A stretch of 64,000 nt of DNA from Natrialbaceae archaeon Tc-Br11_E2g14. Its GTDB lineage: Archaea; Halobacteriota; Halobacteria; Halobacteriales; Natrialbaceae. Each line of letters opens with the position of its first letter. Position 1 is the stretch's first letter. A model generated the notes under the pieces. The model worked only from the letters and a program-made list of their open reading frames with translations. It had not been told where the DNA came from and did no database searches. Of the stretch, positions 16,522-33,928 are shown one piece after another. The translations under genes and the position numbers were made by a program. Location of the stretch: NCBI GenBank assembly GCA_001564275.1, contig LKND01000003.1:1-64000 (forward strand). Reading direction: 5' to 3'.

Positions 16522-16953
16522 ATGATCGTTGCCGCAGTAGATCAATCAGCACACGCTCGAGCAGTCGTCGCCGAAGCCGCCGCTCTCGCGGACGCATACA
16601 GCGAGCCACTCGAGGTAGTTCACGTGATGAGTCAATCCGAATTCGTCTCGATCCAGCGGGAGAGCGCGGAGATGACCGGTAAGCCGATCAACCTCGATAG
16701 AATCAGAGAAATCGCCGCCGAACACGCAGACTCCGTCGCATCTGACGCGGACATCTCGGTCCCCTACACTCCAGTCGGGATCGTCGGTGACGCCTCGAGC
16801 GAAATCGTCGAGTATGCCGAGGAGTCCGATGCCAGCTACATCGTCGTCGGGCCCAGAGAGCGATCACCAACGGGCAAGGCCGTTTTCGGGAGCACCGCAC
16901 AGTCGATTCTACTCACCGCGACCTGTCCCGTGGTGTCGATCGTCAAACAGTAA
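16522..16953 (+). CDS. Universal stress protein (UspA family)
   Basis: MIVAAVDQSAHARAVVAEAAALAD...IVVGPRERSPTGKAVFGSTAQSILLTATCPVVSI. Confidence 0.88.
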   Translation: MIVAAVDQSAHARAVVAEAAALADAYSEPLEVVHVMSQSEFVSIQRESAEMTGKPINLDRIREIAAEHADSVASDADISVPYTPVGIVGDASSEIVEYAEESDASYIVVGPRERSPTGKAVFGSTAQSILLTATCPVVSIVKQ

Positions 16954-17077: not shown

Positions 17078-18553
17078 TCACTCTCGCAACTTCATCAGGT
17101 AGGGTGACAGGACGATCAGGAAGATCATGATGATCAAGACGATCGAGAGTGGACTCTCGACGAAGATATCGTACGATCCACCCGACACCTGCAGCGAGCG
17201 AAAGAGATTCTCTTCGGCCATTCGTCCCAGGATGACGCCGAGCAGGAACGCCACGATCGAGAAGTCGTACTTCCGCATGAAGTACCCACCTATCCCGAGC
17301 AAGAACACGGTGAGGACGTCGACCCAACTGATGTTGACCGTGTAAATACCCGTGATCGAGAGGACCACGATAAGGGGAATGATGTAGTCGGTATTAATTT
17401 TCGTGAGGTGGCCGAGTTGCGTGATCACCAGCAGTCCGATCACGGGAATTAACACGATGACGCCGATTGCGACGGCGAGATAGATGCTGAATGTGATGTC
17501 CAGGTTGGACCCGAAGAGCGACGGGCCGGGATTGAGCCCGTGCATCAGGAATCCACCGAGCAGGATCGCGGTCGAGGCACTCCCTGGAATGCCAAACGAT
17601 AGCGTTGGGATCAGGGAGCCGCCCACGGCCGAGTTGTTGGATGCCTCCGAGGCAAGAACACCCCGTTCATCACCCGAGCCGAAGGTGTTCGCCATCCCGG
17701 ATGACCGCATTGCTTCGCTGTAGGAGACGAAATTTGCCATCGAGGATCCTGCACCAGGGAGAGCGCCGATTATGGTGCCGATGAAACTCGATTTGACCAC
17801 GGCTCGAGGGTGAGTGATTGTAAAGCGAATTCCCTCAGTGATGCTCCCCGAGAGTTCCGTCGTGGTCTTGGCGATCCCGCCCCGTTCTGCGGCGAGTTTG
17901 ATCATCTCGCTTATCGCGAAGAGTCCGAGCAAGGCCGCGACGATGTCGAGGCCATCGTACAGTGCCAAACTACCGAAATTGTACCGGACGTCCGGCGCGT
18001 TCGGGGACACGCCCACGGTGGTGAACAGCAGCCCGAACATCCCAATGGTCAGCCCCTTCACGATCGAACCCCGCGCGACGACGGTGATCATTGCCAACCC
18101 GAGAAGCGCCACCAGAAATAGGTCCGGAGAATTGAACAGCAGGACGAATTCGATGATGAACGGCGTGATCAAAAAGAGGACGATAATCGAAATGATCCCA
18201 CCGAACGCGGACGATGCGGCCGAAATCGAAAGTGCCGTCACCGCCTGACCGTTTCGCGACATCGGATAGCCATCGAACGTCGTCGCCGCCGAACCTGCCG
18301 TCCCTGGCACGTTGATGAGGATTGCCGAGACGCTCCCGCCGTACATCCCACCCATGTAGATACACGTGAGGAGGATGATTGCCGTCGTTCCATCCAGAAA
18401 CACGGTCAGCGGCAACACGAGCGCCATACCGACAGCCGTCCCGACGCCGGGCGTCGCACCCAACATGACGCCGAAACAGAAGCCAGCAAGGATCCAAAGC
18501 AGCGTCTCGACAGTGAGGACGAACTGGACAGCCTCGGTGAATGCCCCGTACAT
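17078..18553 (-). CDS. Tripartite tricarboxylate transporter large permease (TctA family)
   Basis: LWILAGFCFGVMLGATPGVGTAVGMALVLPLT...GMYGGSVSAILINVPGTAGSAATTFDGYPM: classic TctA motifs. Confidence 0.93.
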   Translation of the reverse strand: MYGAFTEAVQFVLTVETLLWILAGFCFGVMLGATPGVGTAVGMALVLPLTVFLDGTTAIILLTCIYMGGMYGGSVSAILINVPGTAGSAATTFDGYPMSRNGQAVTALSISAASSAFGGIISIIVLFLITPFIIEFVLLFNSPDLFLVALLGLAMITVVARGSIVKGLTIGMFGLLFTTVGVSPNAPDVRYNFGSLALYDGLDIVAALLGLFAISEMIKLAAERGGIAKTTTELSGSITEGIRFTITHPRAVVKSSFIGTIIGALPGAGSSMANFVSYSEAMRSSGMANTFGSGDERGVLASEASNNSAVGGSLIPTLSFGIPGSASTAILLGGFLMHGLNPGPSLFGSNLDITFSIYLAVAIGVIVLIPVIGLLVITQLGHLTKINTDYIIPLIVVLSITGIYTVNISWVDVLTVFLLGIGGYFMRKYDFSIVAFLLGVILGRMAEENLFRSLQVSGGSYDIFVESPLSIVLIIMIFLIVLSPYLMKLRE

Positions 18554-18554
18554 C

Positions 18555-19094
18555 TCAGGGCCCCACAAACAGCAAGAGCCCTTCGTTCAGCGGCACACCG
18601 AGGGCTTCTTCGAAGCCGTAGACGATGCCAAGCGTGACGATGAGCAATATCCCACCGTACAGGCGGTTGATATCGAGGAGAAACACGTACCCAACGATGA
18701 ACAGGGGCGTTGCGATATAAAATCCCAGCAGGTAGGCGACGAGTATGTACCCCGCCACCAACCCGGCGGTGTACACACTATTCATCGGTTGAGTTTGCGA
18801 TTGGCTCTGGTCGTCCGCCTCCTGCCCGAGATCCATCTCTTCAGACTCCTCGGACTGGTCGACGATCCGCGTTTCCTCCTCGACGAGGAGCCGGATCGGT
18901 CGCGGCAGGTAACTCGAGAGCAACAGGAGTCCACAGCCGACGATTGCGGCGCCAGCAATTGCCCGCGGGAACGTCGCTGCTCTCGCGGAAAAATCGTACG
19001 TGCCGTAAAACATGTAGATAGCGACACCCAGCAACACGAGGGTGAAGACGGATTCTCCGTCCACGAGTCGGGCTCGCTCAACGTAGTCTTTCAT
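18555..19094 (-). CDS. Tripartite tricarboxylate transporter small subunit (TctB family)
   Basis: Small 4-TM protein between tctA-like and tctC-like genes, ending in ...ALGVPLNEGLLLFVGP. Confidence 0.8.
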   Translation of the reverse strand: MKDYVERARLVDGESVFTLVLLGVAIYMFYGTYDFSARAATFPRAIAGAAIVGCGLLLLSSYLPRPIRLLVEEETRIVDQSEESEEMDLGQEADDQSQSQTQPMNSVYTAGLVAGYILVAYLLGFYIATPLFIVGYVFLLDINRLYGGILLIVTLGIVYGFEEALGVPLNEGLLLFVGP

Positions 19095-19123
19095 TGATTG
19101 GGTCCTGTTGGACGGGCACGGTT

Positions 19124-20158
19124 TTACTCGGCGAATTCGTCGAGATCGATCAGTTCGGGAAGTTCGTCGAAGATGGTGTGGAAGTTGTCGTTGAACTCCT
19201 CGCGGGGGGTGTAGTGGACGTTCTGACCGGACGCCTCAGCCCAGTCCTGGACGCCGTCGCTGTTGACCGCGTCGTCGATCGCCTCCGCGAGAGTGTCTTT
19301 TCGATCGTCGGGAACGTCCTCCAGAACGGCGAACCCACGGCTCTGAGAGATGAAGTCCGCAGACGGGTACCCCAGCTCTTCGATGGTCGGAACGTCGTAG
19401 AGGTCCGTCTCGTTGGTGGTGAACATCGCCGTCACCTCACCCTCTTCGACCAGTTCACTTGCCCCCGCCTCCGAGGAAAAGGCCGCTGGGATTTCCCCAG
19501 AGGCAACTGCTCGGTTGTGTTCGGCGGCGTCGGGATAGCCAATCCACTCGAACTCCGTATCGAAGTACTCCTCGGACTCGAGGACGGCACCCATCATGTG
19601 GAAGCTGCCGAGGTGAACGACCCCGATATTGCTGAATTCGCCCGTTCGATACGCGTCGAGGACGTCTTCGGGATCCCAGTCGGCGTAATCGTTGTTGACC
19701 ACCATGACCGCGCCCTCGCCGGCAAAGCCCCCGAGCCCCTCGAAGGCCTGCAGATCGAAGTCCGGTTCCTCGATAAGCCACCCAGCGGGAACCGCTGGCA
19801 AGTTGAAGACGGCGATCGTGTATCCGTCCGCCTCCTGGCCGGCGACGTGGCCCGGACCAATGAGTTGGTTCCCACCGGGTCGGTTGTCGATTTCGACGGG
19901 GACGTCAAGGACACCACCCAAGGCGGGGCCGAGTTCGCGGGCGTATGTGTCTGTCCCCCCTCCTGCCCCACCAGGGACCACGAGGGTGAGTTGTCCATCA
20001 GGGAACGTCTCGTCATCCTCACCGTTTCCAGTGTCGTCGCTGCCGTCATCTGTAGCTTCGTCGTCGTCACCGAGGCAACCCGCCAACAGCGATATACCAA
20101 CCCCTCCCAGTGCAAGCTTCTTTGTAAATGCACGTCTATTCGTGTTCGTGGCTGTCAT
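19124..20158 (-). CDS. Tripartite tricarboxylate transporter substrate-binding lipoprotein (TctC/Bug family)
   Basis: Lipobox LLAGCLGDD; LTLVVPGGAGGGTDTYARELGPALGGVLDVPVEIDNRPGGNQLIG: TctC signature. Confidence 0.93.
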   Translation of the reverse strand: MTATNTNRRAFTKKLALGGVGISLLAGCLGDDDEATDDGSDDTGNGEDDETFPDGQLTLVVPGGAGGGTDTYARELGPALGGVLDVPVEIDNRPGGNQLIGPGHVAGQEADGYTIAVFNLPAVPAGWLIEEPDFDLQAFEGLGGFAGEGAVMVVNNDYADWDPEDVLDAYRTGEFSNIGVVHLGSFHMMGAVLESEEYFDTEFEWIGYPDAAEHNRAVASGEIPAAFSSEAGASELVEEGEVTAMFTTNETDLYDVPTIEELGYPSADFISQSRGFAVLEDVPDDRKDTLAEAIDDAVNSDGVQDWAEASGQNVHYTPREEFNDNFHTIFDELPELIDLDEFAE

Positions 20159-20463
20159 GCTCCGTCAAAGCGATTGTCGAGGACTATCATTAAGAACTGT
20201 GTACCGGCAATAGTTGCCACCTCTTGAGGCCATTGACAATTCAGAACCACACTCGAAGGCGACGGCCCGATAGGGCACGTGGTCCAGACTGTCGTGACTA
20301 CTGAAACGAGTAACACACGCTCACGGGAAATCGGCTCAAAACTGGATAGTGTCGATTTGAGTATACGTTCGTGAGGTCATGTGGAATGGCTTTCAGTGGC
20401 AACGGTAGCTACCAGGTACCGTATTCACAAACGTTATTGTCACACACGCGGATCGTCGGTCGT

Positions 20464-21414
20464 ATGCCGTACAGTACACAGCTCAGAGACCGGCTCGACC
20501 GAGACGAGATACTTGTCTGCCCTGGCTCACACGATCCGTTGACCGCCCGCGTTATCGACGAAGTCGGGTTCGACGCGATCTACATGACCGGATACGGGAC
20601 CTCGCTGTCACGGACTGGGTATCCCGACGCCGGACTGATTACGATGACGGAGATGGTCAGGAACGCACGACATATCCAGGAGACGATCGACGTCCCCCTC
20701 ATCGCTGACGCCGACAACGGCTTCGGGAACGCCGTCAACACCATCAGGACCGTCCGGGAGTACATTCAGGCCGGCCTCGGCGGGATCCAGCTCGAGGATC
20801 AGACCTTCCCCAAGCGCTGTGGTCACGTCGAGGGCCGCCAGGTAATCGAGAAGGAAGCAGCCGTCGGCAAAATCGAGGCTGCAGCGAGCGTTCGCGACGA
20901 ACGGGACGAGGATCTCGTAATCGTGGCCAGGACCGATGCGCTGGGTGCCGTCGACGGAAGCGTCGACGAGGCGATCGACCGGGCCAACGCGTTTCTCGAT
21001 GCCGGGGCAGACGTCGCGTTTGTCGAGGGACCGACGACGACGGAGGAGGTCGAGCGGGTTGGTACCGGTGTCGACGGACCGCTGCTCTACAACTGCACCG
21101 GTATCTCGCCCCTGATGGATGCAGCGGCGCTCGAGGCGGCTGGCTTCGATATCCTCCTGTATCCCGGCGTCTGCACTCGAACGGCGATTATCTCGATGTA
21201 CGAGGCCGCCGTCGACATGAAAGAACGCGGGACCGACGCGGTGGGGGAGGTCTATCGCGAGATGGACGAGTTGCCGATCGGTGGCCTTCACGAGTTTTCG
21301 GGCTTTCCCGAGGTCGTCGAGTGGGAGGAGTCGTATCTCCCTGCCCACGAGCAGGCGAAGTACGAGGACAGTCTTGGTGCGTCGATCTCCGACACCGACG
21401 CCGAGTCCCAGTGA
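20464..21414 (+). CDS. Isocitrate lyase/PEP mutase superfamily lyase (methylisocitrate / dimethylmalate lyase type)
   Basis: MTGYGTSLSRTGYPDAGLITMTEM...LIADADNGFGNAVNTIRTVREYIQAGLGGIQLEDQTFPKRCGHVEG; retains the KRCGH catalytic motif. Confidence 0.88.
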   Translation: MPYSTQLRDRLDRDEILVCPGSHDPLTARVIDEVGFDAIYMTGYGTSLSRTGYPDAGLITMTEMVRNARHIQETIDVPLIADADNGFGNAVNTIRTVREYIQAGLGGIQLEDQTFPKRCGHVEGRQVIEKEAAVGKIEAAASVRDERDEDLVIVARTDALGAVDGSVDEAIDRANAFLDAGADVAFVEGPTTTEEVERVGTGVDGPLLYNCTGISPLMDAAALEAAGFDILLYPGVCTRTAIISMYEAAVDMKERGTDAVGEVYREMDELPIGGLHEFSGFPEVVEWEESYLPAHEQAKYEDSLGASISDTDAESQ

Positions 21415-21497
21415 TCGTCGGCCGGATCGATGTCTTCACCGCCGGACGAGCGTCGATCACGTAACTCACTGTCGGCGACAGGCGGGTAGGCCACTGC

Positions 21498-22886
21498 CTA
21501 TCGATCGGTTTCGACGGCGGCAGCGATCGTGTCGCCGAGCGTCTCGAGCCCGTGGGACTCGAGTGACAGCACGTGTTCGATGATCGTGTCCGTCGCCGCA
21601 TCGGTCGTTGCCGGGCTGGTCACCGATCGGAATTTTTCCACGATCGCTTCGACCGTGAGTCGGCGTTCGGGTTCACCCCGTGGACCCTCGACCGTCGCCG
21701 TCAGGCTTTCGTCAGCCGTTTCGATGCGCACACTTGTTGGCCAGGCAGCGGGGAATCGATCGGTCATCGACGGATCCTCCTCGACGACGATCCGCTCGAG
21801 TAGTCCTCGTAGCGCCGGGTCCGTGAGGCGTGCTCGCGTGAATTGGTCCGGCAGCACTGCGCGATCCACGACGGCCACACCCACCGCATACTGTGGACTG
21901 AACTGAGCGTCGACGACGGTTTGCGGTTTGATCTTCCGATCCCGCGGGTTCGAGAGGGCGAAGGCGCTTTCGAACGTCGAGACGGTGATTTCCTCGACGT
22001 CGTCCGGGTGGATATCGTGTTCGGTCACGAGATCCAGCGTCGCGTCGACGGCTGGATGATTGTACCGGCAACAGGCATAGGGCTTGATCCCAGTCCGGCG
22101 GATCTCGAAGTCCGAACCCAATCCCGACGTGAGGCGATCGGGTTGCGGGTCGACCCCGTACATGTTGAGCAGGCCGTAGGTTCCCGTGAGCGGATCCGCA
22201 GCGCCACGGAATCCATGCTTCCCCAGCGAGACAGCGAGCACCGCGTCGCGAGCAGCCAGTCCAGGGTGAATCCGCTTCGTCCAGGCACCGTTTTCTTTGT
22301 ACTGTAAGGAACCGCTCGCCTGACTCAGGACGATGCCAAGCAGGTTCTCAAGCTCCTCGGCGTCGAATCCGGCGAGCAACCCCCCCGCGACCGCACCCCC
22401 AAACACGCCGCAGGTCGCGGTCCCGTGAAACCCGCGGTCGAGGTGAACACGGTGGTTTCGAAGGGCCATTCCCAACCGGCAGGCAACCTCGTAGCCGGCG
22501 ACCATCGCCGTCAGAAACGACTGTCCGTCGACATCTTCTCGCTCTCCGATCGCCATTGCCGCCGCGACGATGGGCGCACCCGGGTGAATAACCGCCTCCC
22601 GATGCGTGTCATCCAGTTCCAGCATGTGAACAAGCGAACCGTTGACGAACGCTGCAAAGCTGGCTGATTCTCGTTTGCCGGTCGACCAAACAGTGCTCTC
22701 CGGTGGACCCGAAAGTGCCTCGTTTGCGCTGTCGTAGACGACTTGTCCCGAGTCCGTCTCGAGGCCCCTGATTCCAATCCCTAGCGTATCGAGGGTGTAC
22801 TGCTTCGACAGGCGTTGGACGTCATCTGGAAGGCGCTCGAACGTGAGATCCGTACAGTAGGTGCACAGCTCGGTTGCCGGTTGCAT
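21498..22886 (-). CDS. MmgE/PrpD family protein
   Basis: GSLVHMLELDDTHREAVIHPGAPIVAAAMAIGEREDVDG...RIHPGLAARDAVLAVSLGKHGFRGAADPLTGTYG...KPYACCRYNHPAVDA. Confidence 0.9.
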   Translation of the reverse strand: MQPATELCTYCTDLTFERLPDDVQRLSKQYTLDTLGIGIRGLETDSGQVVYDSANEALSGPPESTVWSTGKRESASFAAFVNGSLVHMLELDDTHREAVIHPGAPIVAAAMAIGEREDVDGQSFLTAMVAGYEVACRLGMALRNHRVHLDRGFHGTATCGVFGGAVAGGLLAGFDAEELENLLGIVLSQASGSLQYKENGAWTKRIHPGLAARDAVLAVSLGKHGFRGAADPLTGTYGLLNMYGVDPQPDRLTSGLGSDFEIRRTGIKPYACCRYNHPAVDATLDLVTEHDIHPDDVEEITVSTFESAFALSNPRDRKIKPQTVVDAQFSPQYAVGVAVVDRAVLPDQFTRARLTDPALRGLLERIVVEEDPSMTDRFPAAWPTSVRIETADESLTATVEGPRGEPERRLTVEAIVEKFRSVTSPATTDAATDTIIEHVLSLESHGLETLGDTIAAAVETDR

Positions 22887-23127
22887 GTGGCGGACAATAG
22901 CTCGCGCACACAAATACTATTCCCTCAATTCACGTTCGCTAACCGCGATGTCGTGGGGTTGTTGTGATCACGAGCGGTTCAAATCAGGTCGGCAATGGAC
23001 GGTCCCTCGTCCTGAAAAACACATCGGTCCACTCACGTCGGGCACCCGTATTTGTCGACCAACGGTCATCACCGTTCAACTCATGCCCGGTGAACTCGAT
23101 CGACCTGGGCGTGAGCGGGGGTGGCGA

Positions 23128-24357
23128 TCACGTCACGTCATCGCTAGCGAGGTCCTCGATCGTCTCCCGTTCGTACCCGATCTCCGAGAGCACCGCTTCG
23201 GTGTGTTCGCCAAGGTCGGGTGGATGACGACGGACCGATGTCGGGGTCTGGGACAGGTGCATCGGGCTGCCGGCCATCGGAATCTCACCGAGACGTGGAT
23301 GGTCGACCGTCTGGAGCATCCCACGAGATTCGACCTGTGGGTGCTCGAAGGCTTCTGCAAGGTCCCGAACTGGGGCCGCGGGGACGTCGGCGGCCTCGAG
23401 CAGCGTCAATGCTTCCTCAGTCGTGTACGTCTCGAACTCCGTCGACAACAGCGCTTCGAGGTCGTCCCGGTGAGCCACGCGGTCTGCGTTCGTAGCGAAC
23501 CGCTCGTCTTCGAGGAGGGCTGGTCGGTCCAGAGCTCGACAGAGGCGCCGCCAGAGTTTCTCGGAGGCGGCGGCGACCACAACGTGTCCATCTCGAGTGG
23601 GAAACGCCTGATACGGGACGATCGTCGGGTGGCGAGAGCCCATTTTCGACGGCGGCTCACCCGTTGCGAAGTACGAACTCGCCATGTAGGAAAGCCAGGC
23701 GAGTTGCCCGTCGAAGAGACTCACATCGATCTTCTGTCCATCCGCGTCGGCGAAAGCCCGTCGAAAGAGTGCCGCCAGTATCGCCTGGGTGGCGTACATG
23801 CCGGCACCGATATCTGCTATTGCCACCCCAACTCTAACGGGAGGGCCGTCGGGCTCCCCGGTAATGCTCATGAAACCGCTTTCGGCCTGCATGATCAGAT
23901 CGTATGCCGGATCCCTGGCTGCCGGCCCCCACTCACCGTATCCCGAAAGCGAGCAGTAGATTAGATCTGGGTTACTCGTCGATAGCGTCCCGTAATCGAG
24001 CCCCCACTGTTCGGTCGTCCCGACCCGGAAATTTTCCACGAAGACGTCGGCATCTTCGACGAGGTCGCGTAGCACCGCCTGTCCGCGTTCGTCCTTCAGG
24101 TTCAACGTGATCGACCGCTTGTTCCGGTTGACACTCGCGTAGTACGCGCTCAGCCCCTCCTCATCGCCAAATCTCGGTGGATACCATCCCCGTGTCTGAT
24201 CACCCACATTGGGTCGTTCAACCTTTATGACGTCTGCCCCGAGGTCGGCGAGTTGCATCGTACAGAACGGGCCAACGAGGACCTGTGAGGCGTCGATGAC
24301 GGTGACTCCCTCGAGGGGCCCAACCTCGGTTTCCGGGTCGCGTGCTTCTCCAGCCAT
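23128..24357 (-). CDS. CaiB/BaiF family CoA-transferase (class III)
   Basis: PLEGVTVIDASQVLVGPFCTMQLADLGADVIKVERPNVGDQTRGW...NRNKRSITLNLKDERG...DVFVENFRVGTTEQWGLDY. Confidence 0.93.
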   Translation of the reverse strand: MAGEARDPETEVGPLEGVTVIDASQVLVGPFCTMQLADLGADVIKVERPNVGDQTRGWYPPRFGDEEGLSAYYASVNRNKRSITLNLKDERGQAVLRDLVEDADVFVENFRVGTTEQWGLDYGTLSTSNPDLIYCSLSGYGEWGPAARDPAYDLIMQAESGFMSITGEPDGPPVRVGVAIADIGAGMYATQAILAALFRRAFADADGQKIDVSLFDGQLAWLSYMASSYFATGEPPSKMGSRHPTIVPYQAFPTRDGHVVVAAASEKLWRRLCRALDRPALLEDERFATNADRVAHRDDLEALLSTEFETYTTEEALTLLEAADVPAAPVRDLAEAFEHPQVESRGMLQTVDHPRLGEIPMAGSPMHLSQTPTSVRRHPPDLGEHTEAVLSEIGYERETIEDLASDDVT

Positions 24358-24366
24358 CGTCGCCTC

Positions 24367-25530
24367 TCACTCGTAGGCCGAAATCCCGGTCAGATCCTGA
24401 CCGAGAATGAGCGTGTGGATGTCGTGTGTCCCCTCGTAGGTGTAGACCGTCTCCATGTTGCTCATGTGGCGCATCGGGGGATAATCGCTGGTGATCCCGT
24501 TGCCGCCGAGCATCTCTCGAGCCACGCGTGCCTGATCACGGGCCATGCGCACGTTGTTCCGTTTGGCCATCGAGACGTGCTGTGGACGCAGATCACCTCG
24601 CTCTTTCAATTCGGCAAGGCGGTGAGCGAGCAGTTGTGCGAGCGTGATCTGGGTGGCCATCTCCGCCAGTTTCTCCTGTTGGAGCTGGAATCTGGCGATC
24701 GGCCCCCCGAACTGCTCGCGGTCGGTGGCGTACTCGCGGGCGGTCTCGAAACAATCTCGCGCAGCGCCGACTGCACCCCACGCGATCCCGTAGCGGGCCT
24801 GAGTGAGACAGGACAGCGGCCCCTTCATGCCCTCGACGCCGGGCAGGACGTTCTCCTCGGGAACGAACACGTCGTTGAGACCGATTTCGCCAGTGATCGA
24901 CGCCCGCAGGGAGAGTTTCTCGCCGATCTTGTTCGTCGAAACGCCGTCACGGTCGGTTTCGACGAGGTATCCTCGGACTGGATTCCCATCGCTCGAGCGA
25001 TCCTTGGCCCAGACGACGGCCACGTCGGCGATGGGGGAGTTGGTGATCCAGGTCTTCGAGCCGTTGAGCACGTACCCGTCGGCAGTCCCTTCGGCACGAG
25101 TCTCCATCGCCGATGGGTTCGACCCGTGCTCCGGTTCGGTGAGTCCGAAGCACCCCACCGCGTCGCCAGCGCCGAGTTTCGGCAGCCATGCCTCCTTCTG
25201 GGCCTCGCTTCCGAAGGCGTGGATGGGATACATGACGAGCGCACCTTGCACTGACGCCATCGAACGCAACCCCGAGTCACACGCCTCGAGTTCCTGCATC
25301 AACAGTCCATAGGCCGTCTCAGAGACGTTCGGCGAGCCATACCCCTCGAGGTTGGGTGCATAGAACCCCATCTCGCCCATCTCGGGGATTAACTCGGTTG
25401 GGAAGGTGCCCTCTTCGTAATAATCGGCGATGTCAGGTCGGACCTGATCGTCGACGAACTCGCGAGCCGTGTCCCGGATCAGCCGTTCCTCCTGATCCAA
25501 GCCGTCCTCTAACGCCACGTAGTCGAGCAT
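24367..25530 (-). CDS. Acyl-CoA dehydrogenase, glutaryl-CoA dehydrogenase-like
   Basis: GCFGLTEPEHGSNPSAMETRAEGTADGYVLNGSKTWITNSPIADVAVVWAKD...NMETVYTYEGTHDIHTLILGQDLTGISAYE, closely resembling GCDH. Confidence 0.88.
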   Translation of the reverse strand: MLDYVALEDGLDQEERLIRDTAREFVDDQVRPDIADYYEEGTFPTELIPEMGEMGFYAPNLEGYGSPNVSETAYGLLMQELEACDSGLRSMASVQGALVMYPIHAFGSEAQKEAWLPKLGAGDAVGCFGLTEPEHGSNPSAMETRAEGTADGYVLNGSKTWITNSPIADVAVVWAKDRSSDGNPVRGYLVETDRDGVSTNKIGEKLSLRASITGEIGLNDVFVPEENVLPGVEGMKGPLSCLTQARYGIAWGAVGAARDCFETAREYATDREQFGGPIARFQLQQEKLAEMATQITLAQLLAHRLAELKERGDLRPQHVSMAKRNNVRMARDQARVAREMLGGNGITSDYPPMRHMSNMETVYTYEGTHDIHTLILGQDLTGISAYE

Positions 25531-25593
25531 CACACGATTCACTATCAATAGCGTTCATATAACTCTTTGCGTCCGATCGCTGACCACTACGAG

Positions 25594-25681
25594 ACGTAGT
25601 AGCCACTGAACGTCATTGCACACATCCTCACGAGACCATGGCTCACTGTGAAGGTGTGTAAATCGTTTCAATTGTTACTAT
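25594..25681. repeat. About 88-bp palindromic intergenic repeat, family P2, copy 2
   Basis: gtagtagccactgaacgtcattgcacacatcc...aaggtgtgtaaatcgtttcaattgttactata; shares GTAGCCACTGAACGTCATTGCACAC with copy 1. Confidence 0.75.
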
Positions 25682-25732
25682 AGCATCGATGACGCATGAC
25701 ACTGTGGTGACGACCGACCCTGGACCAGCCCG

Positions 25733-26503
25733 TCACTGGTAGGCCAGTTTCAGTTCGATCTCGTTGACCGCCCCGAGCAACAGATCGGGGATCTCCTGTT
25801 CAAAATATGCACCGGTCAACCGGCGGGCAGGCCCGGCGACGGATATCGCCCCGTGTACGGCATCGTCGAGGAGAATTGGGGCACCGACCGCCCGAATGCT
25901 CTCGTGGGACTCGCGGTTGTTGAACGCCACACCGCGTTCGCGAATCGTTTCCAGTTGCTCCTCGAGGGCGTCTCGAGTGGTGATCGTTTCGTCCGTGACC
26001 CCGGAGAGGCCGGTTCGATCGATAATCGCGTCAACGCGTGCGGGTGGAAGATGTGCGAGAATCGCCTTCCCGGCCGAGAGCGTGTGAATCCGCTTTCGTT
26101 TCCCGACCCACGAGTTCGTCGGCACGCCCCGATCCCCGGTCAGGCGGGCGATGTAGACGGCACAATCGTGCTCTTCGACGACCAAGTTCACCGCCTCGTC
26201 GGTTTCGTCGACGAGTTGCTCGAGGACCGGTTCAGCGGCGCCGATGAGTTTCCGGTAGTGGTGTTTCGCTTGCATTCCGTGGTCGAGGTATTTCAGGCCG
26301 AGCCGGTAGCCCTCGGGGTCGGCCACGACGTAACCCGCCTCCTCGAGGGACGCCAGGTGTTCGTGGGCGGTGCTGTTAGCAATTCCGACGGCGTCTGCCA
26401 ACTCGACGAGTCTGATGTGCCCGGACTCGTGGATTGTTTCGATAATGGCGAAAGCGGTGGTCGTGGATTTGATCCCCCGCCGAGTATCGGTGTTCCGTCC
26501 CAT
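25733..26503 (-). CDS. IclR family transcriptional regulator
   Basis: GIKSTTTAFAIIETIHESGHIRLVELADAVGIANSTAHEHLASLEEAGYVV...YIARLTGDRGVPTNSWVGKRKRIHTLSAGKAILAHLP. Confidence 0.93.
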   Translation of the reverse strand: MGRNTDTRRGIKSTTTAFAIIETIHESGHIRLVELADAVGIANSTAHEHLASLEEAGYVVADPEGYRLGLKYLDHGMQAKHHYRKLIGAAEPVLEQLVDETDEAVNLVVEEHDCAVYIARLTGDRGVPTNSWVGKRKRIHTLSAGKAILAHLPPARVDAIIDRTGLSGVTDETITTRDALEEQLETIRERGVAFNNRESHESIRAVGAPILLDDAVHGAISVAGPARRLTGAYFEQEIPDLLLGAVNEIELKLAYQ

Positions 26504-26675
26504 TGTTACAGGACACATGTTGTGTTCGCACATATCTCTTGTCATCGATCGTGTCGAATGGGGCTCTGCAGGGGCTCGAGCACCCGTGCAGCTGGTACCG
26601 GGCGTACCTGGGTGAAAGATCCAGTAGGGCACCACCGATAGTTGGGTCGTCACGGCTACAGGCGACTCGCCCAAA

Positions 26676-26694
26676 GTTTCGATAGTGTCGAAAC
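26676..26694. promoter_or_regulatory. Candidate IclR operator, GTTTCGA-tagtg-TCGAAAC
   Basis: Perfect 7-bp inverted repeat with 5-bp spacer in the intergenic region upstream of the IclR gene. Confidence 0.5.
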
Positions 26695-26910
26695 CATCGT
26701 GCATCTGCCCGCCACTGACATCACTGAAACATGCAAAGCAATAGACGTGGCGGGGGCTAGTAGCTGCAACAGGTGCTGTTCATGACAGCGGCAACGTTGC
26801 GTGGACACATCACATGTCCATACGAGATGGGGTCGACCTGCAGGGGAGCGTACATTACAAGCATATGGTTGTAATGTTAGGGAGGCGATAGTCGATGTCG
26901 AATAGGTATT

Positions 26911-26929
26911 ATTTCGCCACTGTCGAAAT
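26911..26929. promoter_or_regulatory. Candidate IclR operator, second site ATTTCG-ccactgt-CGAAAT
   Basis: Inverted repeat matching the reverse complement of the 26676 site at about 15 of 19 positions. Confidence 0.45.
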
Positions 26930-27133
26930 GCGTTCACACCAGAGCTCCACTCCAACTCCGGTCCGGACGTCGCTCTCTGTACGTCCACGGAGAAGGGCCG
27001 GCTCGGGAGTTATCCACTCGAGTGAGCGAAGGCCACCGTCCAACAACCAGACGAGAGGGCATCGATACGGTTGACGACGACTACCAGCTCATCGGTTTCG
27101 ACAATGACGAAGGGAATTGACCAGGGATGCCGG

Positions 27134-27625
27134 TTACTCCTGGCGCTGTTGTCGGTAGGCAACGAGGCCTCCCGCCTCGAGAATCGACTGGAGATTCGGT
27201 GGCAAGGTGCCCGATGGAAGGGTGGTCTCGTCACGGAGGTTGGTGAACGTGCCAGCAGAGAGGTCGATGGCGACGGTGTCGCCATCATTGACCACACTCG
27301 AGACACCCTCGACTTCGGCCAGGGGTAGACCGACGTTGATACAGTTGCGATAGAAAATTCGAGAGAACGATTCCGCGACGACCGCACCGACACCGGCGTA
27401 CTTGAGGGCAAGTGGAGCGGCCTCGCGGGAGGAACCCAGGCCGAGATTCTCGCCGGCAACGATGACGTCGCCGGCCTCGATTCGGTCGGGCAATTCGGGA
27501 TCGTACCCCTCGAGGACGTGATCGCCGAATTCGGCCTTGTCGTCGAGGTGCAGATACTTCCCGGGTAAGATCTGGTCAGTGTCGACCGCGTCACCGATGA
27601 CGTGGGCGGTGCCTTCGATATACAT
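27134..27625 (-). CDS. Aconitase/IPM-isomerase family small (swivel) subunit, LeuD-like
   Basis: IEGTAHVIGDAVDTDQILPGKYL...VIVAGENLGLGSSREAAPLALKYAGVGAVVAESFSRIFYRNCINVGLPL. Confidence 0.88.
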   Translation of the reverse strand: MYIEGTAHVIGDAVDTDQILPGKYLHLDDKAEFGDHVLEGYDPELPDRIEAGDVIVAGENLGLGSSREAAPLALKYAGVGAVVAESFSRIFYRNCINVGLPLAEVEGVSSVVNDGDTVAIDLSAGTFTNLRDETTLPSGTLPPNLQSILEAGGLVAYRQQRQE

Positions 27626-28878
27626 CAGGCCACCTCCCTCGGATCGGTAATCTCGCCGTAGATAGCAGCGGCGGCGGCCGTTTCCGGACTGCTGATGTAG
27701 ATTTCTCCTGGCCCCATGCGCCCGGGGAAGTTTCGGTTCATCGTCCCGACACAGGTGTCGCCCTCACCGAGTAAGCCGCCGTGGGCCCCGAAACAGGGGC
27801 CACACCCGGGGGCGTTCACCACCCCGCCAGCGTCCATGATGCGGTTGGTGATTCCCTCCTCGTTCATTCGCTTGGCGGCTGCCTTGCTGCCGGGGACGAC
27901 GATCAAGTCGGTGTGTTTCGCGACGACGTCGCTACCGAGGACGTCGGTGAAGGCACGAATGTCTTCGTATCGAGCGTTGTTGCAGGTGCCGACGAACACC
28001 TGATCGACCGCCGTTCCCGCATTGTCGACGACCGTCCCGATGTTGTCGACGGCAGATGGCATCGCCACCAGCGGTTCGATCGCCGACCCATCGATTCGGT
28101 GGGTCGTGGTGTACGCTGCATCGGGATCGGCTTCGACGGTTTCGTAGGGCGCTCGTGCACGTCCCTCAAGGTAGGATTCAGTGACGGAATCCGCAGGAAT
28201 GATCCCCGTCTGTGCGCCGAGTTCGACCGCGAAGTTGGTGAGCGTCTGGCGTTCGTGCATCTCGAGCGCGTCGATACCAGGGCCGTAGTACTCGATCGCG
28301 TCGTAAATCGCCTCGCTGGCCGTCAGTTCCCCCATGATGGCGAGGCCCAAATCCTTTGCACTGGTCCCCGCGGGAAGTTCGTCGGTCACGACGAGTTTGC
28401 GCGTCTCCGGCACCTTGAGCCACAGTTCACCGGTCCCCAGCGCCTGCCCGAGGTCCGTATGAGAGATGCCCGTCGAGAACATGCCGAAGGCCCCGTGGGT
28501 CGTCGTGTGCGAATCCGAGCCGATGATGAGCTGTCCGGGTAGGGCGTATCCCTCCTCGGCGACGATATTGTGGAGGATTCCCTGCCCCGAGTCGTAGAAG
28601 TGTTCGACAGCTTGCTCGTCCAACCACGCGCGCATCTCGTTCATGTGCGTCGTAATCGTGGGATCACTCGAGGGCACGTGGTGGTCGAACGCAACGATTG
28701 CCTGCTCCGGATTGGCGATCCGATCGTACCCGAGGTCGTCCATCCGTTCGATACCGCGGTACATCGAGAGATCGTTCGCCAGGATCCAGTCCGGCGTAAC
28801 GTCGACGAGATCGCCGGGATCGACCGTCGAGGCCGTCGCATGGCTGGCTATGATCTTCTGGGCGATTGTCTGCCCCAT
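27625..28878 (-). CDS. Aconitase/IPM-isomerase family large subunit, LeuC-like hydratase
   Basis: MGQTIAQKIIASHA...GQLIIGSDSHTTTHGAFGMFSTGISHTDLG...VGTCNNARYEDI...GVVNAPGCGPCFGAHGG Fe-S ligand motifs. Confidence 0.9.
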   Translation of the reverse strand: MGQTIAQKIIASHATASTVDPGDLVDVTPDWILANDLSMYRGIERMDDLGYDRIANPEQAIVAFDHHVPSSDPTITTHMNEMRAWLDEQAVEHFYDSGQGILHNIVAEEGYALPGQLIIGSDSHTTTHGAFGMFSTGISHTDLGQALGTGELWLKVPETRKLVVTDELPAGTSAKDLGLAIMGELTASEAIYDAIEYYGPGIDALEMHERQTLTNFAVELGAQTGIIPADSVTESYLEGRARAPYETVEADPDAAYTTTHRIDGSAIEPLVAMPSAVDNIGTVVDNAGTAVDQVFVGTCNNARYEDIRAFTDVLGSDVVAKHTDLIVVPGSKAAAKRMNEEGITNRIMDAGGVVNAPGCGPCFGAHGGLLGEGDTCVGTMNRNFPGRMGPGEIYISSPETAAAAAIYGEITDPREVA

Positions 28879-29008
28879 ATCAGGTCGGTTGCGCTTCTCC
28901 CCGATATAGTTATTTGTTAGTTCGGAATCACTTGTCTCGAGGGGTGCATTTCTTGCCGGTACACTAGCACGTATAAACACGCTCGGATACGTGTGGGGTA
29001 TAGAGCCC

Positions 29009-30136
29009 ATGGGACAATCCAGTGAGACAGCCGACGGATCGCCGCTACGACAACTCGACGAACTGGACGTGATCGTCGATACTGACGCACACATTCGTGA
29101 GACGGTTGAGGACCTCATTCCCTACATCGACGACCGGTACGAGGGAGCAAAGTGGATCGTCGAGCGAACCGAACACCCAGAACGGGACATCTACTCGCTG
29201 ACGCACTCGCTCCCGCCGAGTCTCCACGCCGAGCGCGGTGGGTGGAGTGCCGACACGAACACGGTCGATAAGAAACTGCAGGAATTAGACGAGTTCAACA
29301 TCGATTACGGCATCGTCGACCCGGGATTGAACCTGGTGTTGCCAACGGTCAACAACGAGCGCATCGCCGTCGCGATGATGAACGCCTATAACAGTTGGCT
29401 GCTCGATAACTTCCTGGACGAGGGGAACCATCGGCTGAAAGCCAACCTCCTGGTATCTCACCACAAACCGGACAAATCGGCCGAAGAGATCGATCGGTTG
29501 GCGAACGAAAAGGACGTCGTCGGCGTTGCTCTGCCGTCGACCGGCGTCATTCCGCCGGTTGGACACGAGCGCTACGACCCGATCTACCAGGCTGCCAGTG
29601 ATCACGACCTCCCGGTGTTCTTCCACGGGGCGTCTACTAACACGTCACACGTCTTCCCGCTCCAGCGGATGTACAATCAGACGTACACGGAAGACCACGT
29701 CATCATCCACCCGTTCAGCCAGATGTGGAACCTGTCGTCGCTCATCTTCCAGGGTGCCCCCGAACGCTTCCCGGACCTCGACTTCGTGTTCCAGGAGTCC
29801 GGCGTGGGGTGGATCCCCTACCTGATGTGGCGCATGGACGATCATTACCTCGAGATGAACTACGAACTGCCGCTCCTCCAGCAAATGCCAAGCGACTACA
29901 TACACGATCAGATCTACTTCACGACCCAGCCGCTGGGCCACACCGAGGACAATCCGAAACACCTGGCGATGGCCATCGAGATGGCGGGGCCGGACAACAT
30001 TATGTACTCCTCTGATCTCCCGCACTCGGATTTCGACCCACCGAGTGAGTTGTTCAACCGGATCCGCTCGCACTTCGATCGCGAAACCGTCGAGAACATC
30101 ATGGGGAAGACTGCCATGGATTTGGTAGACCTCTAA
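29009..30136 (+). CDS. Amidohydrolase family protein (ACMSD / aromatic decarboxylase-like TIM barrel)
   Basis: DVIVDTDAHIRETVEDLIPYIDDRY...VFFHGASTN...IHPFSQMWNLSSLIFQGAPERFPDLDFVFQESGVGWIPYLMWRMD...MYSSDLPHSDFDPP. Confidence 0.85.
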   Translation: MGQSSETADGSPLRQLDELDVIVDTDAHIRETVEDLIPYIDDRYEGAKWIVERTEHPERDIYSLTHSLPPSLHAERGGWSADTNTVDKKLQELDEFNIDYGIVDPGLNLVLPTVNNERIAVAMMNAYNSWLLDNFLDEGNHRLKANLLVSHHKPDKSAEEIDRLANEKDVVGVALPSTGVIPPVGHERYDPIYQAASDHDLPVFFHGASTNTSHVFPLQRMYNQTYTEDHVIIHPFSQMWNLSSLIFQGAPERFPDLDFVFQESGVGWIPYLMWRMDDHYLEMNYELPLLQQMPSDYIHDQIYFTTQPLGHTEDNPKHLAMAIEMAGPDNIMYSSDLPHSDFDPPSELFNRIRSHFDRETVENIMGKTAMDLVDL

Positions 30137-30163
30137 CGCGCCACGCCACAGATTATCCACGCT

Positions 30164-30520
30164 ATGCCAAGCAAACACAAAGTTGCGACGACCGAGGAAC
30201 TCAGCGACGGTTCACGAGTCATCGCGGAGATCGAGGGACAGGAAATCGCGGTATTCCAGATTGACGGCGACTACCACGCCATTTCGAACTACTGTGTCCA
30301 CCAGGCCGGCCCGCTCTGTGAGGGGAAACTCACGGGGGATATGTACATCGACGACAACGGCTGGGACTGGAACTACGACGACGACGAAAAGCACATCACG
30401 TGCCCGTGGCACGGCTGGCTCTTCGACGTGACAAATGGTGAAAACATCCACAATTCGAAGTACAGGGTCCCAACATACGGTGTCGAGGTTGAAGACGGCG
30501 ATATCTTCGTCATCAGGTGA
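30164..30520 (+). CDS. Rieske [2Fe-2S] ferredoxin
   Basis: Rieske motifs CVH (NYCVHQAGPL) and CPWHGW. Confidence 0.92.
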   Translation: MPSKHKVATTEELSDGSRVIAEIEGQEIAVFQIDGDYHAISNYCVHQAGPLCEGKLTGDMYIDDNGWDWNYDDDEKHITCPWHGWLFDVTNGENIHNSKYRVPTYGVEVEDGDIFVIR

Positions 30521-31422
30521 GTCACGTGACAACTCACCCACCACACACCGCTAAAACGCTCCGGGCCGCTATCGAGGGAGAGGAGCTCGTGGTTGCTCCC
30601 GGCACGACCGACGCACTGACGGCCTCGATCGCGGCCGACGTGGGGTTCGAGACGGTCTACCTCGGCGGCTATGCGACCGGCGCGGCAACAGCCATCACCG
30701 AGCCGATGACGACGATGACCGAAATGGCCGACCGAGCTCGAGAGATAACGGCGCAGGTGGACGTACCGCTAATAGTCGATGGCAACGCCGGGTTCGGCAA
30801 CCCAGCCCACACTCACCGAACGATCAATCACTTCATCGACGCAGGGGTGGCCGGCCTCCACATCGAGGATCAGGTCTATCCGAAGCGACTGCACTATCAC
30901 GAGGGAAAACACCACATCACCGACGTCGAGGCGATGAAACGAAAGGTCGAAGTCGCCGATCGAGCGCGGCGCGAAGCGTCCGGCGATATCGTCCTGATCG
31001 CTCGCTCGGACGCCAACCGTGGCGATCGGCGGGAGCGCGAGACGATCGAAGACGCGGTCGACCGCGTCAACGCCTACTTCGAGGCTGGGGCTGACGTCGG
31101 CATGCTCTTTCCGCGGACCTGGGAGGAGATGGAGTACGTCGCCGCCAACGCCGCGGGTCCGATGACGTTCGTCCACTCGGACAACTACGAGCCACGGCCC
31201 ACCACCCAGGATCTCGAGGACCTCGGGTACGGGCTGGTCATCTACCCGACGGCCGCGCCGGTCGTGATCACCAAGCATATGAAGGCACTCTACGAACAGA
31301 TCCGCGATGCGGGCGAGACCGGCTGGGACCCAGCGGAGTACGGGGACGTTCGCAACTACATCGAGTCTATCATCGGCCTCCCGGAGTATTACGACATCGA
31401 GGACCGTTCGGGGAACAAATAA
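30517..31422 (+). CDS. Isocitrate lyase/PEP mutase superfamily protein lacking the KRCGH cysteine
   Basis: VVAPGTTDALTASIAADVGFETVYLGGYATGAATAITEPMTTMTEM...DGNAGFGNPAHTHRTINHFIDAGVAGLHIEDQVYPKRLHYHEGK; GTG start overlaps the Rieske stop. Confidence 0.87.
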   Translation: MSHVTTHPPHTAKTLRAAIEGEELVVAPGTTDALTASIAADVGFETVYLGGYATGAATAITEPMTTMTEMADRAREITAQVDVPLIVDGNAGFGNPAHTHRTINHFIDAGVAGLHIEDQVYPKRLHYHEGKHHITDVEAMKRKVEVADRARREASGDIVLIARSDANRGDRRERETIEDAVDRVNAYFEAGADVGMLFPRTWEEMEYVAANAAGPMTFVHSDNYEPRPTTQDLEDLGYGLVIYPTAAPVVITKHMKALYEQIRDAGETGWDPAEYGDVRNYIESIIGLPEYYDIEDRSGNK

Positions 31423-31429
31423 CCTCGCC

Positions 31430-32629
31430 ATGAGCCCAGCCGCCCCAACCGATTCCACGACCGCACCGCTCGAGGGGATTCGGGTCGTCGACTGTACGCA
31501 GATGCTCTCCGGCCCCTTCGCGAGCCAGTTGCTCGGGGACCTCGGGGCGGAGATCGTCAAAATCGAACGCCCAGGAGTGGGTGATATCACCAGACGGATC
31601 GACCCGGCTATCGACGGCGACGAGATCACTGCGTACTTCGCCTCGCTCAACGGCGGAAAGAAGAGCGTCGAACTCGACTGTTCGACCGACGACGGGGCAG
31701 CGGCACTCGAGGCGCTCGTCGACACCGCTGACGTCCTCATCGAGAACTACAAACCCGGAACGATGGAGCGGTGGGGCCTGGGGTATGAGGCCCTTGCCGA
31801 AACCAACCCGGAGTTGCTCTACTGTTCGATCACCGGCTTTCTCGAAGGCCCCTACAGCGACTTACCCGCCTTCGACATGGTCGTACAGGCACTCAGCGGG
31901 AGCATGAGCATCACCGGTGAAGCTGACGGCCCCCCGGTCAGGCCGGGACTCCCGATCGGCGACATCTGTGCCGGCATGTACGCGGTGATCGGCATCACGA
32001 CTGCACTCGGCGTCCGGGAGGAGTGTGGTGGGCAGCACATACAGGTCCCCATGTTCGGGGGCCTCGTCTCCTGGCTTACCGAACGCGCGGGTCGGACTTT
32101 CGCGACGGGTGAACCCTACCCCCGAAACGGAAGTCAACACGCCTCATTGGCCCCATATCGCCTCTTCGAGGCCGAAGACGGCTGGCTCGCACTCGCGATT
32201 GGCAGCGACCGCTCGTGGGACCGCCTCTGTGTGGCGATCGACCGACCGGATTTACGTGAGGATCCCCGGTTCGCCACGAACGCAGCCCGCCTGGAGCATC
32301 GTTCGACGCTTGCCGAGTTACTCGAGGGGGTCATCGAGTCGACCACCACCGAGGTATGGTTCAACCGGTTCCGCGAGTACGGCGTTCCCGGGGCACCGGT
32401 CAACGATACAATCGACGTCTTCGAGGACGAACACCTAGAACAGGCACCGTACACCGTAGAGCGGACCGTCGGCGAGACCCCGATGACTTTCGTCACGGCC
32501 CCGATATCGTTTTCGGGACTCGAGACTCGGCAAAATCGGGACATCCCGAACCTTGGCGAACACACGACGGCCGTTCTGAGCGACGTACTGTCGCCGTCCG
32601 CGCTGCGGACTCTCCAGCACTCGACGTGA
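31430..32629 (+). CDS. CaiB/BaiF family CoA-transferase (class III), second copy in cluster
   Basis: PLEGIRVVDCTQMLSGPFASQLLGDLGAEIVKIERPGVGDITRRID...DVLIENYKPGTMERWGLGYEALAETNPELLYCSITGF. Confidence 0.93.
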   Translation: MSPAAPTDSTTAPLEGIRVVDCTQMLSGPFASQLLGDLGAEIVKIERPGVGDITRRIDPAIDGDEITAYFASLNGGKKSVELDCSTDDGAAALEALVDTADVLIENYKPGTMERWGLGYEALAETNPELLYCSITGFLEGPYSDLPAFDMVVQALSGSMSITGEADGPPVRPGLPIGDICAGMYAVIGITTALGVREECGGQHIQVPMFGGLVSWLTERAGRTFATGEPYPRNGSQHASLAPYRLFEAEDGWLALAIGSDRSWDRLCVAIDRPDLREDPRFATNAARLEHRSTLAELLEGVIESTTTEVWFNRFREYGVPGAPVNDTIDVFEDEHLEQAPYTVERTVGETPMTFVTAPISFSGLETRQNRDIPNLGEHTTAVLSDVLSPSALRTLQHST

Positions 32630-32716
32630 GACATGCTGTAGCGGTCGTTGGGATGGATCCGAGATTGCTTCGGTGCCGAACCAGGCGGGACATCAACCGA
32701 ATGGAGGTGCGAGACC

Positions 32717-33928
32717 GTGTTCGGATCCGTGCGTCTCGCTGATGCCGTCAGGCGAGAAGCGGCGGTTCTGTGGCGCGACGGACGCGGCTGGATCCTGGTC
32801 TCGATCAGTCTGGGCTGGTTCCTCTCGATCGGCGTTCGACTGGTCTATCCGGCACTGGCCCCGTTCTTTCGTGCGGACTTCGGGATCGGGTTCGGCACGA
32901 CCGGGCTCTTACTCACGTTGTTGTGGGCAGCATACGCCATCGGGCACATCCCAGGCGGCATTCTCGGCGACCGGCTCGGCGAGGGTCGCATCCTCGTGGC
33001 AAGCACCCTCATCGCCGGCGTCACCGTCCTCGTCGTTGCGCTGTCGATGTCGGTCTGGATGCTGTTTCTGGGAACGATCACGTTCGGTCTCGCGACGGCA
33101 CTGTTCGGGCCGACCAGATTCACCGTCTTCACCAGCATTTACGACGAGCGAGCGGGTTCAGCGATCGGGATCACGATGGCTGCCGGGAGCGCCGGCAACG
33201 CCGTTCTCCCGGTGGTGGCAACGCTCGTCGCAGGCGCGTTGATCTGGCGATACAGCTTTCTGTTGTTCGTGCCCGCATTTGGCGTGGTCGCGATCGGACT
33301 CTTTCTGTCGGTGCCGAGTCGCCTTACCCCTGCCACAGCGAGCCTCGACGGACTCTCCCTCGAGACCCTCGAGCACCTCAAGCGCGGGATGACCACCGGC
33401 GGTATCCCGTCCATCGTCGGCGTACAGATTTGCTTTTCGTTCGTCTTTCAGGGGTTTTCGGGGTTTTATCCACTCTATCTCATCGAATCGAAGGGCGTTA
33501 CCCCCGGGGTGGCCTCCGCCCTGTTCGGCCTCTTTTTCGCGGCCTCGTTCGTTGTTCAACCGCTCGCGGGGAGCGCAATGGATCGCGTCGGGTCACGTCG
33601 GTCGCTCCTCGTCGTCCTGGCGATCAGCGCGATCGCACTCTGGCTGTTACCGTTCGTCGAAACTCTGGGCGTCCTGATTCTCCTTACGCTGGTGTTGAGC
33701 CTCCTGAACGGCACGGCAGTCATCACACAGACGTACATCGCCGACGCCCTCCCGGAGGACATGAAGGGGACGGGGCTGGGAACGCTGAAGGCAGGGTGGA
33801 TGACTGTCGGGGCAACGAGCCCACTGCTGATCGGGCTACTCGGCGACTACGGATCGCTGGACGCCGGGTTCGTGGTGCTCGCCATCGTGGGGTCGATATC
33901 GGTGGCGGTCACGACTCTCAAACTGTAG
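32717..33928 (+). CDS. MFS transporter
   Basis: 12-TM-like hydrophobic ORF with AAYAIGHIPGGILGDRLGEGRILVASTLIAGV (MFS motif A region). Confidence 0.88.
   Translation: MFGSVRLADAVRREAAVLWRDGRGWILVSISLGWFLSIGVRLVYPALAPFFRADFGIGFGTTGLLLTLLWAAYAIGHIPGGILGDRLGEGRILVASTLIAGVTVLVVALSMSVWMLFLGTITFGLATALFGPTRFTVFTSIYDERAGSAIGITMAAGSAGNAVLPVVATLVAGALIWRYSFLLFVPAFGVVAIGLFLSVPSRLTPATASLDGLSLETLEHLKRGMTTGGIPSIVGVQICFSFVFQGFSGFYPLYLIESKGVTPGVASALFGLFFAASFVVQPLAGSAMDRVGSRRSLLVVLAISAIALWLLPFVETLGVLILLTLVLSLLNGTAVITQTYIADALPEDMKGTGLGTLKAGWMTVGATSPLLIGLLGDYGSLDAGFVVLAIVGSISVAVTTLKL

Follow-up and report, generated by a model that had tools for sequence, protein, structure and literature searches.

A conserved haloarchaeal gene block that combines a candidate ARO monooxygenase, an apparently undescribed small protein and a probable glutarate module

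Gene content and conservation of the block

The first 64,000 nucleotides of contig LKND01000003.1 from Natrialbaceae archaeon Tc-Br11_E2g14 (hereafter the window) contain a block of 18 genes, at positions 15355-33928, whose order is conserved in a congener (G176). The block encodes a very probable monooxygenase of the ARO type with an adjoining Rieske protein, a small protein that we call c6, transporters, hydratase, dehydratase and lyase homologues, and a probable module for the conversion of glutarate to crotonyl-CoA (Table 1). The host assembly is haloarchaeal, comprises 3.16 Mb in 136 contigs and is 91% complete. Gene families were assigned with Pfam and NCBIfam models, and start codons were refined from codon bias. 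An earlier sequence-only reading had described a catabolic cluster at 17078-33928. All fifteen genes that it named lie where it placed them, with Pfam confirming each family, and its right edge holds, but its left edge does not, as the conserved order starts at 15355 and takes in three further genes.

When the window proteins were compared with 55 kb of the G176 genome (two contigs, 99% complete), matches in conserved order, with 53-91% identity, were limited to the genes of the block. None of the window's 42 other predicted genes had a match in these 55 kb, and both flanks of the block are unmatched. The right-flank gene at 38744 is found in all eight genomes of the genus, and in G176 it is separated from the block by about 1.7 Mb. 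At the insertion site, the contig of the nearest congener stops and the remaining congeners are rearranged. The one extra gene of the G176 block is located between those for CaiB1 and PrpD and encodes a thiolase, which fits the conversion of crotonyl-CoA to acetyl-CoA. The GC content at third codon positions is 0.753 in the block and 0.798 in the remaining window (p = 2e-4). Because 18 orthologues share one order and have this lower value, their grouping exceeds chance, and by such sequence comparison the gene content is confirmed to behave as one unit. The block looks like an acquired, transferable island. Its predicted transcription units lie on both strands, at 15355-16953 (+), 17078-20158 (-), 20464-21414 (+), 21498-28878 (-) and 29009-33928 (+). 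The sequence-only reading had named a failure of the genes to co-occur in other genomes as grounds for refutation, and this check was passed: the full set is found in the host and in G176, and partly overlapping subsets are found in several other genomes.

Table 1. Genes of the conserved block, with window positions, strand and basis of assignment
Gene or product	Position	Strand	Basis or remark
c6, small ARO-associated protein, 125 aa	15355..15732	+	no Pfam or NCBIfam match
AhpC/TSA peroxiredoxin	15828..16325	+	Pfam PF00578; kept in G176 block
Universal stress protein	16522..16953	+	Pfam PF00582; kept in G176 block
TctA permease	17078..18553	-	Pfam PF01970, 420 bits; 87% in G176
TctB	18555..19094	-	Pfam PF07331
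TctC solute-binding protein	19124..20158	-	Pfam PF03401
Lyase1, PEPM/ICL superfamily, KRCGH motif	20464..21414	+	Pfam, solved relatives, motif
MmgE/PrpD, Leu replacing second catalytic Tyr	21498..22886	-	Pfam; IDS epimerase is best solved relative
CaiB1, probable succinyl-CoA:glutarate CoA-transferase	23128..24357	-	9br6 is best solved relative; SucGlutTfsCaiB model
Glutaryl-CoA dehydrogenase (GCDH)	24367..25530	-	solved relatives 2eba and human GCDH
IclR-family regulator	25733..26503	-	Pfam; homologues beside GCDH elsewhere
LeuD/DmdB-type hydratase small subunit, loop YLHL	27134..27625	-	TIGR02087 above cut-off
LeuC/HacA-type hydratase large subunit	27625..28878	-	PRK00402, TIGR01343, TIGR02086 above cut-off
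ARO monooxygenase candidate (AibH2/SfbO-like), Amidohydro_2	29009..30136	+	solved relatives, six predicted ligands
Rieske ferredoxin, presumed ARO electron donor	30164..30520	+	Pfam PF00355; CVH and CPWH motifs
Lyase2, PEPM/ICL superfamily without catalytic Cys (KRLHY)	30517..31422	+	Pfam, motif, N. zhouii orthologue
CaiB2, class III CoA-transferase	31430..32629	+	Pfam
MFS transporter, right end of conserved block	32729..33928	+	Pfam; synteny edge

The ARO candidate and its Rieske partner

AROs, a class recognised only recently, hydroxylate C-H bonds at Mn/Fe or diiron centres. They number in the hundreds, but almost no natural substrates are known for them. The Amidohydro_2 protein of the block and its Rieske neighbour very probably form a dinuclear C-H monooxygenase of this AibH2/SfbO type, judging by their sequences. 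The five best solved relatives of the former are all AROs (8sm7, 6m1w, 8sm8, 8sm6 and 8sm9). The metal ligands of AibH2 are Asp25, His27, His211, Glu265, Asp337 and His340 (PMC7782822). All six have counterparts in the block protein (D26, H28, H206, E263, D336 and H339), which are invariant in five aligned sequences. On the metal ligands and closest relatives we rejected a hydrolase reading, and the "amidohydrolase" of the sequence-only reading is better described as an AibH2-like oxygenase candidate. Its predicted structure was too low in confidence and was not used.

The adjoining small Rieske gene encodes motifs that match the CxH...CxxH pattern, and AROs were originally identified by the presence of such a protein next to them (PMC10811679). 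According to PMC10401708, some members of the family are haloarchaeal, and apart from Rieske proteins and permeases few genes co-occur with them. In three genomes of one genus (loci L189, L190 and L192), two ARO genes flank the Rieske gene and c6 lies beside the second, an arrangement that recalls AibH1H2. Just beyond the block, an FAD_binding_6 oxidoreductase (12225-13514) could donate electrons to a ferredoxin. We rejected it as the ferredoxin reductase of this system, as it lies outside the conserved block and has no relatives near other AROs.

c6, a small protein associated with haloarchaeal AROs

The c6 protein has no family match in Pfam or NCBIfam, and its predicted fold (pLDDT 80, pTM 0.69, from four sequences) had no PDB match below E = 0.05. 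Homologues with 37-55% identity adjoin ARO-Rieske genes in other haloarchaea. A profile built from 14 members and searched in 294 haloarchaeal genomes found 48 copies in 43 genomes; 47 of these copies lie at most 16 kb from an ARO gene, 38 of them at most 2 kb. A c6 copy is present within 16 kb of 52 of the 57 best AROs. AROs are present in 62 genomes, among them 42 of the 43 that have c6 (Fisher p = 2e-34, a value inflated by the relatedness of the genomes). The association is robust despite this inflation because it is spread over 20 genera. All 16 plasmid records that matched c6 were haloarchaeal. The one c6 copy without an ARO gene within 16 kb is that of G187, whose locus otherwise resembles that of Natrinema zhouii but has lost ARO and Rieske genes and kept c6. 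In the N. zhouii locus (L100) these two genes stand between c6 and a DUF6282 gene, and at the G187 locus (L038:14548-18456) Lyase2 and c6 remain.

Both in the host and in G176, c6 forms the left end of the block and the ARO gene lies near the right end. That a gene linked to AROs sits opposite the ARO gene in both genomes suggests that the two ends belong together. This sequence evidence makes c6 a candidate for a third component of haloarchaeal ARO monooxygenases. Each enzyme family in the block is already known; the c6 family is apparently undescribed and is the most novel element of the block. Neither the gene combination nor an ARO-linked c6 turned up in searches of open-licence literature, and an earlier description elsewhere is possible.

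ARO neighbourhoods in other haloarchaea

The closest relative of the block ARO (64% identity) is encoded on plasmid 3 of N. zhouii, together with a Lyase2 orthologue (53%) and with Rieske, c6, MFS, CoA-transferase, dehydrogenase and IclR genes, all in a rearranged order. On plasmid 1 of the same organism, a second ARO gene (51%) is accompanied by genes for LeuCD, a CoA-transferase and an HMG-CoA lyase. Among 125 genomes of the family, Lyase2 orthologues (E < 1e-60) were found only in the host, G176, G187 and G324, and the coordinates in G324 agree with the N. zhouii plasmid 3 locus. Two genomes of one genus, G138 and G249, have a row of genes for IclR (69-70%), ARO, Rieske, c6, a protein like D-2-hydroxyglutarate dehydrogenase, and GCDH. 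These recurring neighbourhoods indicate that AROs regularly occur in acid-catabolic settings, which in two genera include GCDH and a close relative of the block IclR.

The glutarate module

The acyl-CoA dehydrogenase of the block groups with GCDHs at 400-438 bits (438 bits to 2eba, 419 to human GCDH), and the next acyl-CoA dehydrogenase group scores 285. The best solved relative of CaiB1 is the succinyl-CoA:glutarate CoA-transferase (SUGCT) 9br6, at 339 bits, and from its sequence CaiB1 is a probable SUGCT. The sequence-only reading had recognised a CoA-transferase and a "GCDH-like" enzyme, with the right families in both cases, but had missed that the pair points to glutarate.

The pairing of GCDH with CaiB1 is more telling than GCDH alone. 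GCDH is paired with a CaiB1 of 65-74% similarity at three other loci (L132, L136 and L137), and IclR homologues of 64-70% similarity lie beside GCDH at L131 and L136. At L132 a gene for a class III aminotransferase overlaps with this pair. Natronomonas pharaonis PL131 has, in sequence, IclR, the CaiB1-GCDH pair, aldehyde ferredoxin oxidoreductase, an aminotransferase and an amino-acid ABC transporter. Neighbours that are aminotransferases or oxidise aldehydes fit the conversion of lysine or 5-aminovalerate to glutarate. About 20 kb from its GCDH pair, PL131 additionally carries a unit of HyuAB, isochorismatase and Lyase1 genes, which is described below.

Lyases, MmgE/PrpD and the LeuCD-type hydratase

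The best solved relatives of Lyase1 are 4iqd, the 2,3-dimethylmalate lyase 3fa3 and the oxaloacetate acetylhydrolase 3lye. Lyase1 orthologues are found in a haloarchaeal unit of HyuA, HyuB, an isochorismatase-family protein and a PEPM/ICL lyase (L095-L098, L104 and L208:37821-43399), for which the breakdown of a cyclic imide or lactam is our guess. On a Roseomonas plasmid (L103), a similar set is accompanied by genes for MmgE/PrpD and LeuCD.

Lyase2 has the motif KRLHY in the block and in G176 and KRMHY in N. zhouii, and so lacks the catalytic Cys of the K[KR]CGH motif of PrpB-type C-C lyases. It also has Asn in place of a metal-site Asp. Given these two replacements, Lyase2 probably catalyses a reaction other than that of PrpB. 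The sequence-only reading thus had the family of both lyases right, and the chemistry of the second may differ from the cleavage it had assumed.

The known MmgE/PrpD epimerases use a Tyr (Tyr145/148) as second base (PMC12290011). The block protein keeps the shared catalytic residues of the family, but in the window copy and its G176 counterpart Leu replaces this Tyr, which most other haloarchaeal homologues have. With the second base missing, a one-base dehydration or decarboxylation appears more likely than racemisation. Substrate preference in the LeuCD-type family is governed by loops of the small subunit (PMC7308503). The block LeuD scores 181.5 bits against the LeuD/DmdB model TIGR02087 (cut-off 109), a subfamily that also includes other hydratases. 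Its recognition loop is YLHL in both copies of the block and YLNT or YLTT in haloarchaeal relatives; a structurally characterised homoaconitase has YLRT and an isopropylmalate isomerase, likewise of solved structure, has YLVY. For CaiB2, relatives of the SUGCT, mesaconate-CoA and YfdE types are about equally close. No BKACE family member was found in the genome.

Proposed pathway and alternatives

Our preferred interpretation, to which we give about an even chance, is that the block is an aerobic island in which an imported di- or tricarboxylate is hydroxylated, (de)hydrated and cleaved at a C-C bond, giving glutarate that is converted further to crotonyl-CoA. TctA, TctB and TctC, the three parts of a tripartite tricarboxylate transporter (TTT), would together with the MFS protein import one or two substituted di- or tricarboxylates. 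The ARO, reduced by the Rieske protein and assisted by c6, would hydroxylate an unactivated C-H position of the substrate. MmgE/PrpD, dehydrating or decarboxylating with a single base, would then work with the LeuCD-type hydratase to shift or add a hydroxyl group and give an acid of the isocitrate or alkylmalate type. Lyase1 would cleave this acid to glutarate and a 2-oxo acid, either glyoxylate or pyruvate. CaiB1 would convert glutarate and succinyl-CoA to glutaryl-CoA, which GCDH would oxidise and decarboxylate to crotonyl-CoA, with IclR governing the glutarate part. Chemistry suggests a homoisocitrate-like C7 tricarboxylate as the simplest acid that would yield glutarate by an ICL-like cleavage. 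The sequences directly show the gene families, the conservation of the block, the six ligands, the Rieske motif, the clade of the GCDH and the link between c6 and AROs; we infer the step order, the substrate and the glutarate-forming lyase, along with any roles of Lyase2, CaiB2 and c6. The sequence-only reading had proposed that an imported di- or tricarboxylate is isomerised and cleaved, and the pieces CoA-activated and oxidised; this general idea fits, nothing contradicts it, and overall it is partly supported. A broader and more doubtful proposal, which we offer tentatively, is that haloarchaeal AROs are multi-component enzymes in which the undescribed c6 serves regulation, metallation or coupling, and also that the island starts an undescribed, oxygenase-initiated degradation of tricarboxylates via PEPM/ICL cleavage to glutarate.

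Several observations weigh against the degradative pathway to glutarate. Proximity is the sole tie of Lyase1, PrpD and LeuCD to glutarate. Relatives of Lyase1 (about 62%) occur in the HyuA-HyuB-isochorismatase units, and the closest LeuCD relatives (60-66%) belong to clusters that no SUGCT-GCDH pair adjoins (L082, L083 and L101). The presence of GCDH by itself says little because it is nearly universal in haloarchaea: relatives with 80-91% identity occur in most of them, and the type is present in 166 of 195. SucGlutTfsCaiB is the best NCBIfam model for CaiB1, at 393 bits, below its cut-off of 750. A dedicated ferredoxin reductase is absent from the 18-gene block, and the complete set occurs in two genomes only, both of one genus.

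The main alternative, possible but clearly less probable than the pathway, is a mixed island of two or three pathways, namely a glutarate module (IclR-GCDH-CaiB1) and one or two further acid pathways (TctABC-Lyase1-PrpD-LeuCD; ARO-Rieske-c6-Lyase2-CaiB2-MFS), which were transferred together and share nothing except location. The modules do occur elsewhere alone or with other partners, GCDH-CaiB1 with an aminotransferase, Lyase1 with HyuAB-isochorismatase, ARO-Rieske-c6 in many settings and LeuCD-lyase in L101, and the transcription units of the block, at least five in number, are spread over the two strands. However, the same 18 genes in the same order stand at different positions in two genomes, the ARO-linked c6 lies at the end opposite the ARO gene, and AROs recur with GCDH and a similar IclR in G138 and G249.

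The gene order in these last two genomes (IclR, ARO, Rieske, c6, D-2-hydroxyglutarate dehydrogenase-like protein, GCDH) would also suit an ARO that forms 2-hydroxyglutarate by hydroxylating glutarate itself or a closely similar C5 diacid; such an enzyme would provide a functional analogue of the CsiD route in addition to the CoA route. This seems unlikely in the block: it has no gene like that for D-2-hydroxyglutarate dehydrogenase, its ARO shares only 37-38% identity with the AROs of G138 and G249, and the nearest relative of that ARO (64%) goes with Lyase2. The same row at L131:4757-12554 and L200, where the ARO-Rieske-c6 genes are followed by the dehydrogenase-like gene and GCDH (IclR 69-70%), may itself represent a glutarate hydroxylation route.

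The sequence-only reading had invoked methylcitrate logic and noted that no citrate or methylcitrate synthase is present, and none is found within 15355-33928 by Pfam, no genome-wide search having been made. We regard as very improbable a variant 2-methylcitrate pathway with a PrpD dehydratase, a LeuCD hydratase, a PrpB-like lyase and a synthase elsewhere in the genome. The three enzyme families match its logic, and Lyase1 has the KRCGH motif and TIGR02317 prpB as its best curated model, but at 233 bits against a cut-off of 354. MmgE/PrpD, with 30-36 bits against cut-offs of 458-950 for the curated PrpD models, is no 2-methylcitrate dehydratase by these models. The TTT importer and the glutarate module would also be left unexplained. 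The plain methylcitrate pathway was rejected on the PrpD and PrpB scores and the lack of a synthase in the block. A route from hematinic acid or a substituted maleimide, in which ring-opened hematinate would give glutarate, is a guess prompted by LeuCD-lyase relatives that adjoin isochorismatase and amidohydrolase genes; the block has no imidase, and a literature search gave nothing relevant.

Elsewhere in the window, two divergent three-gene sets (51405-54924 and 55366-58804) match the same G339 genes, an apparent duplication.

Comparison with known systems

The pseudomonad itaconate/methylsuccinate cluster (PMC12290011) has, like the block, MmgE/PrpD, a CoA-transferase, an acyl-CoA dehydrogenase and a nearby TTT binding protein. 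The block lacks its itaconyl-CoA hydratase, citramalyl-CoA lyase and isomerase Tyr, and the block dehydrogenase belongs to the GCDH clade. We rejected this pathway because its defining features, including the methylsuccinate isomerase Tyr, are absent.

Dimethylmaleate hydratase and 2,3-dimethylmalate lyase act as a pair in the fermentation of nicotinate, and the block likewise combines a LeuCD-type hydratase with a PEPM/ICL lyase. It differs in having no nicotinate-pathway genes, an aerobic setting with an oxygenase, and a YLHL loop unlike the YLNT or YLTT of other haloarchaea. With the glutarate CoA route the block shares adjacent CaiB1 and GCDH genes of matching clades and their own regulator, but here the module is set among oxygenase, hydratase, dehydratase and lyase genes, and CaiB1 scores below the equivalog level.

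The ARO part is most like AibH1H2G of Rhodococcus wratislaviensis and SfbO of Litorilinea, with which it shares PF04909, the six ligands, an adjoining Rieske gene and a permease in the region (PMC7782822, PMC10401708, PMC10811679). The block has no AibH1-type partner subunit and has other downstream enzymes. In the block and in most haloarchaeal relatives c6 accompanies the ARO; it goes unmentioned in the passages of these three papers that were consulted. The c6 family thus offers a specific hypothesis for a missing ARO component in archaea, and an ARO beside a recognisable end module, from glutarate to crotonyl-CoA, in a conserved island narrows the search for its substrate.

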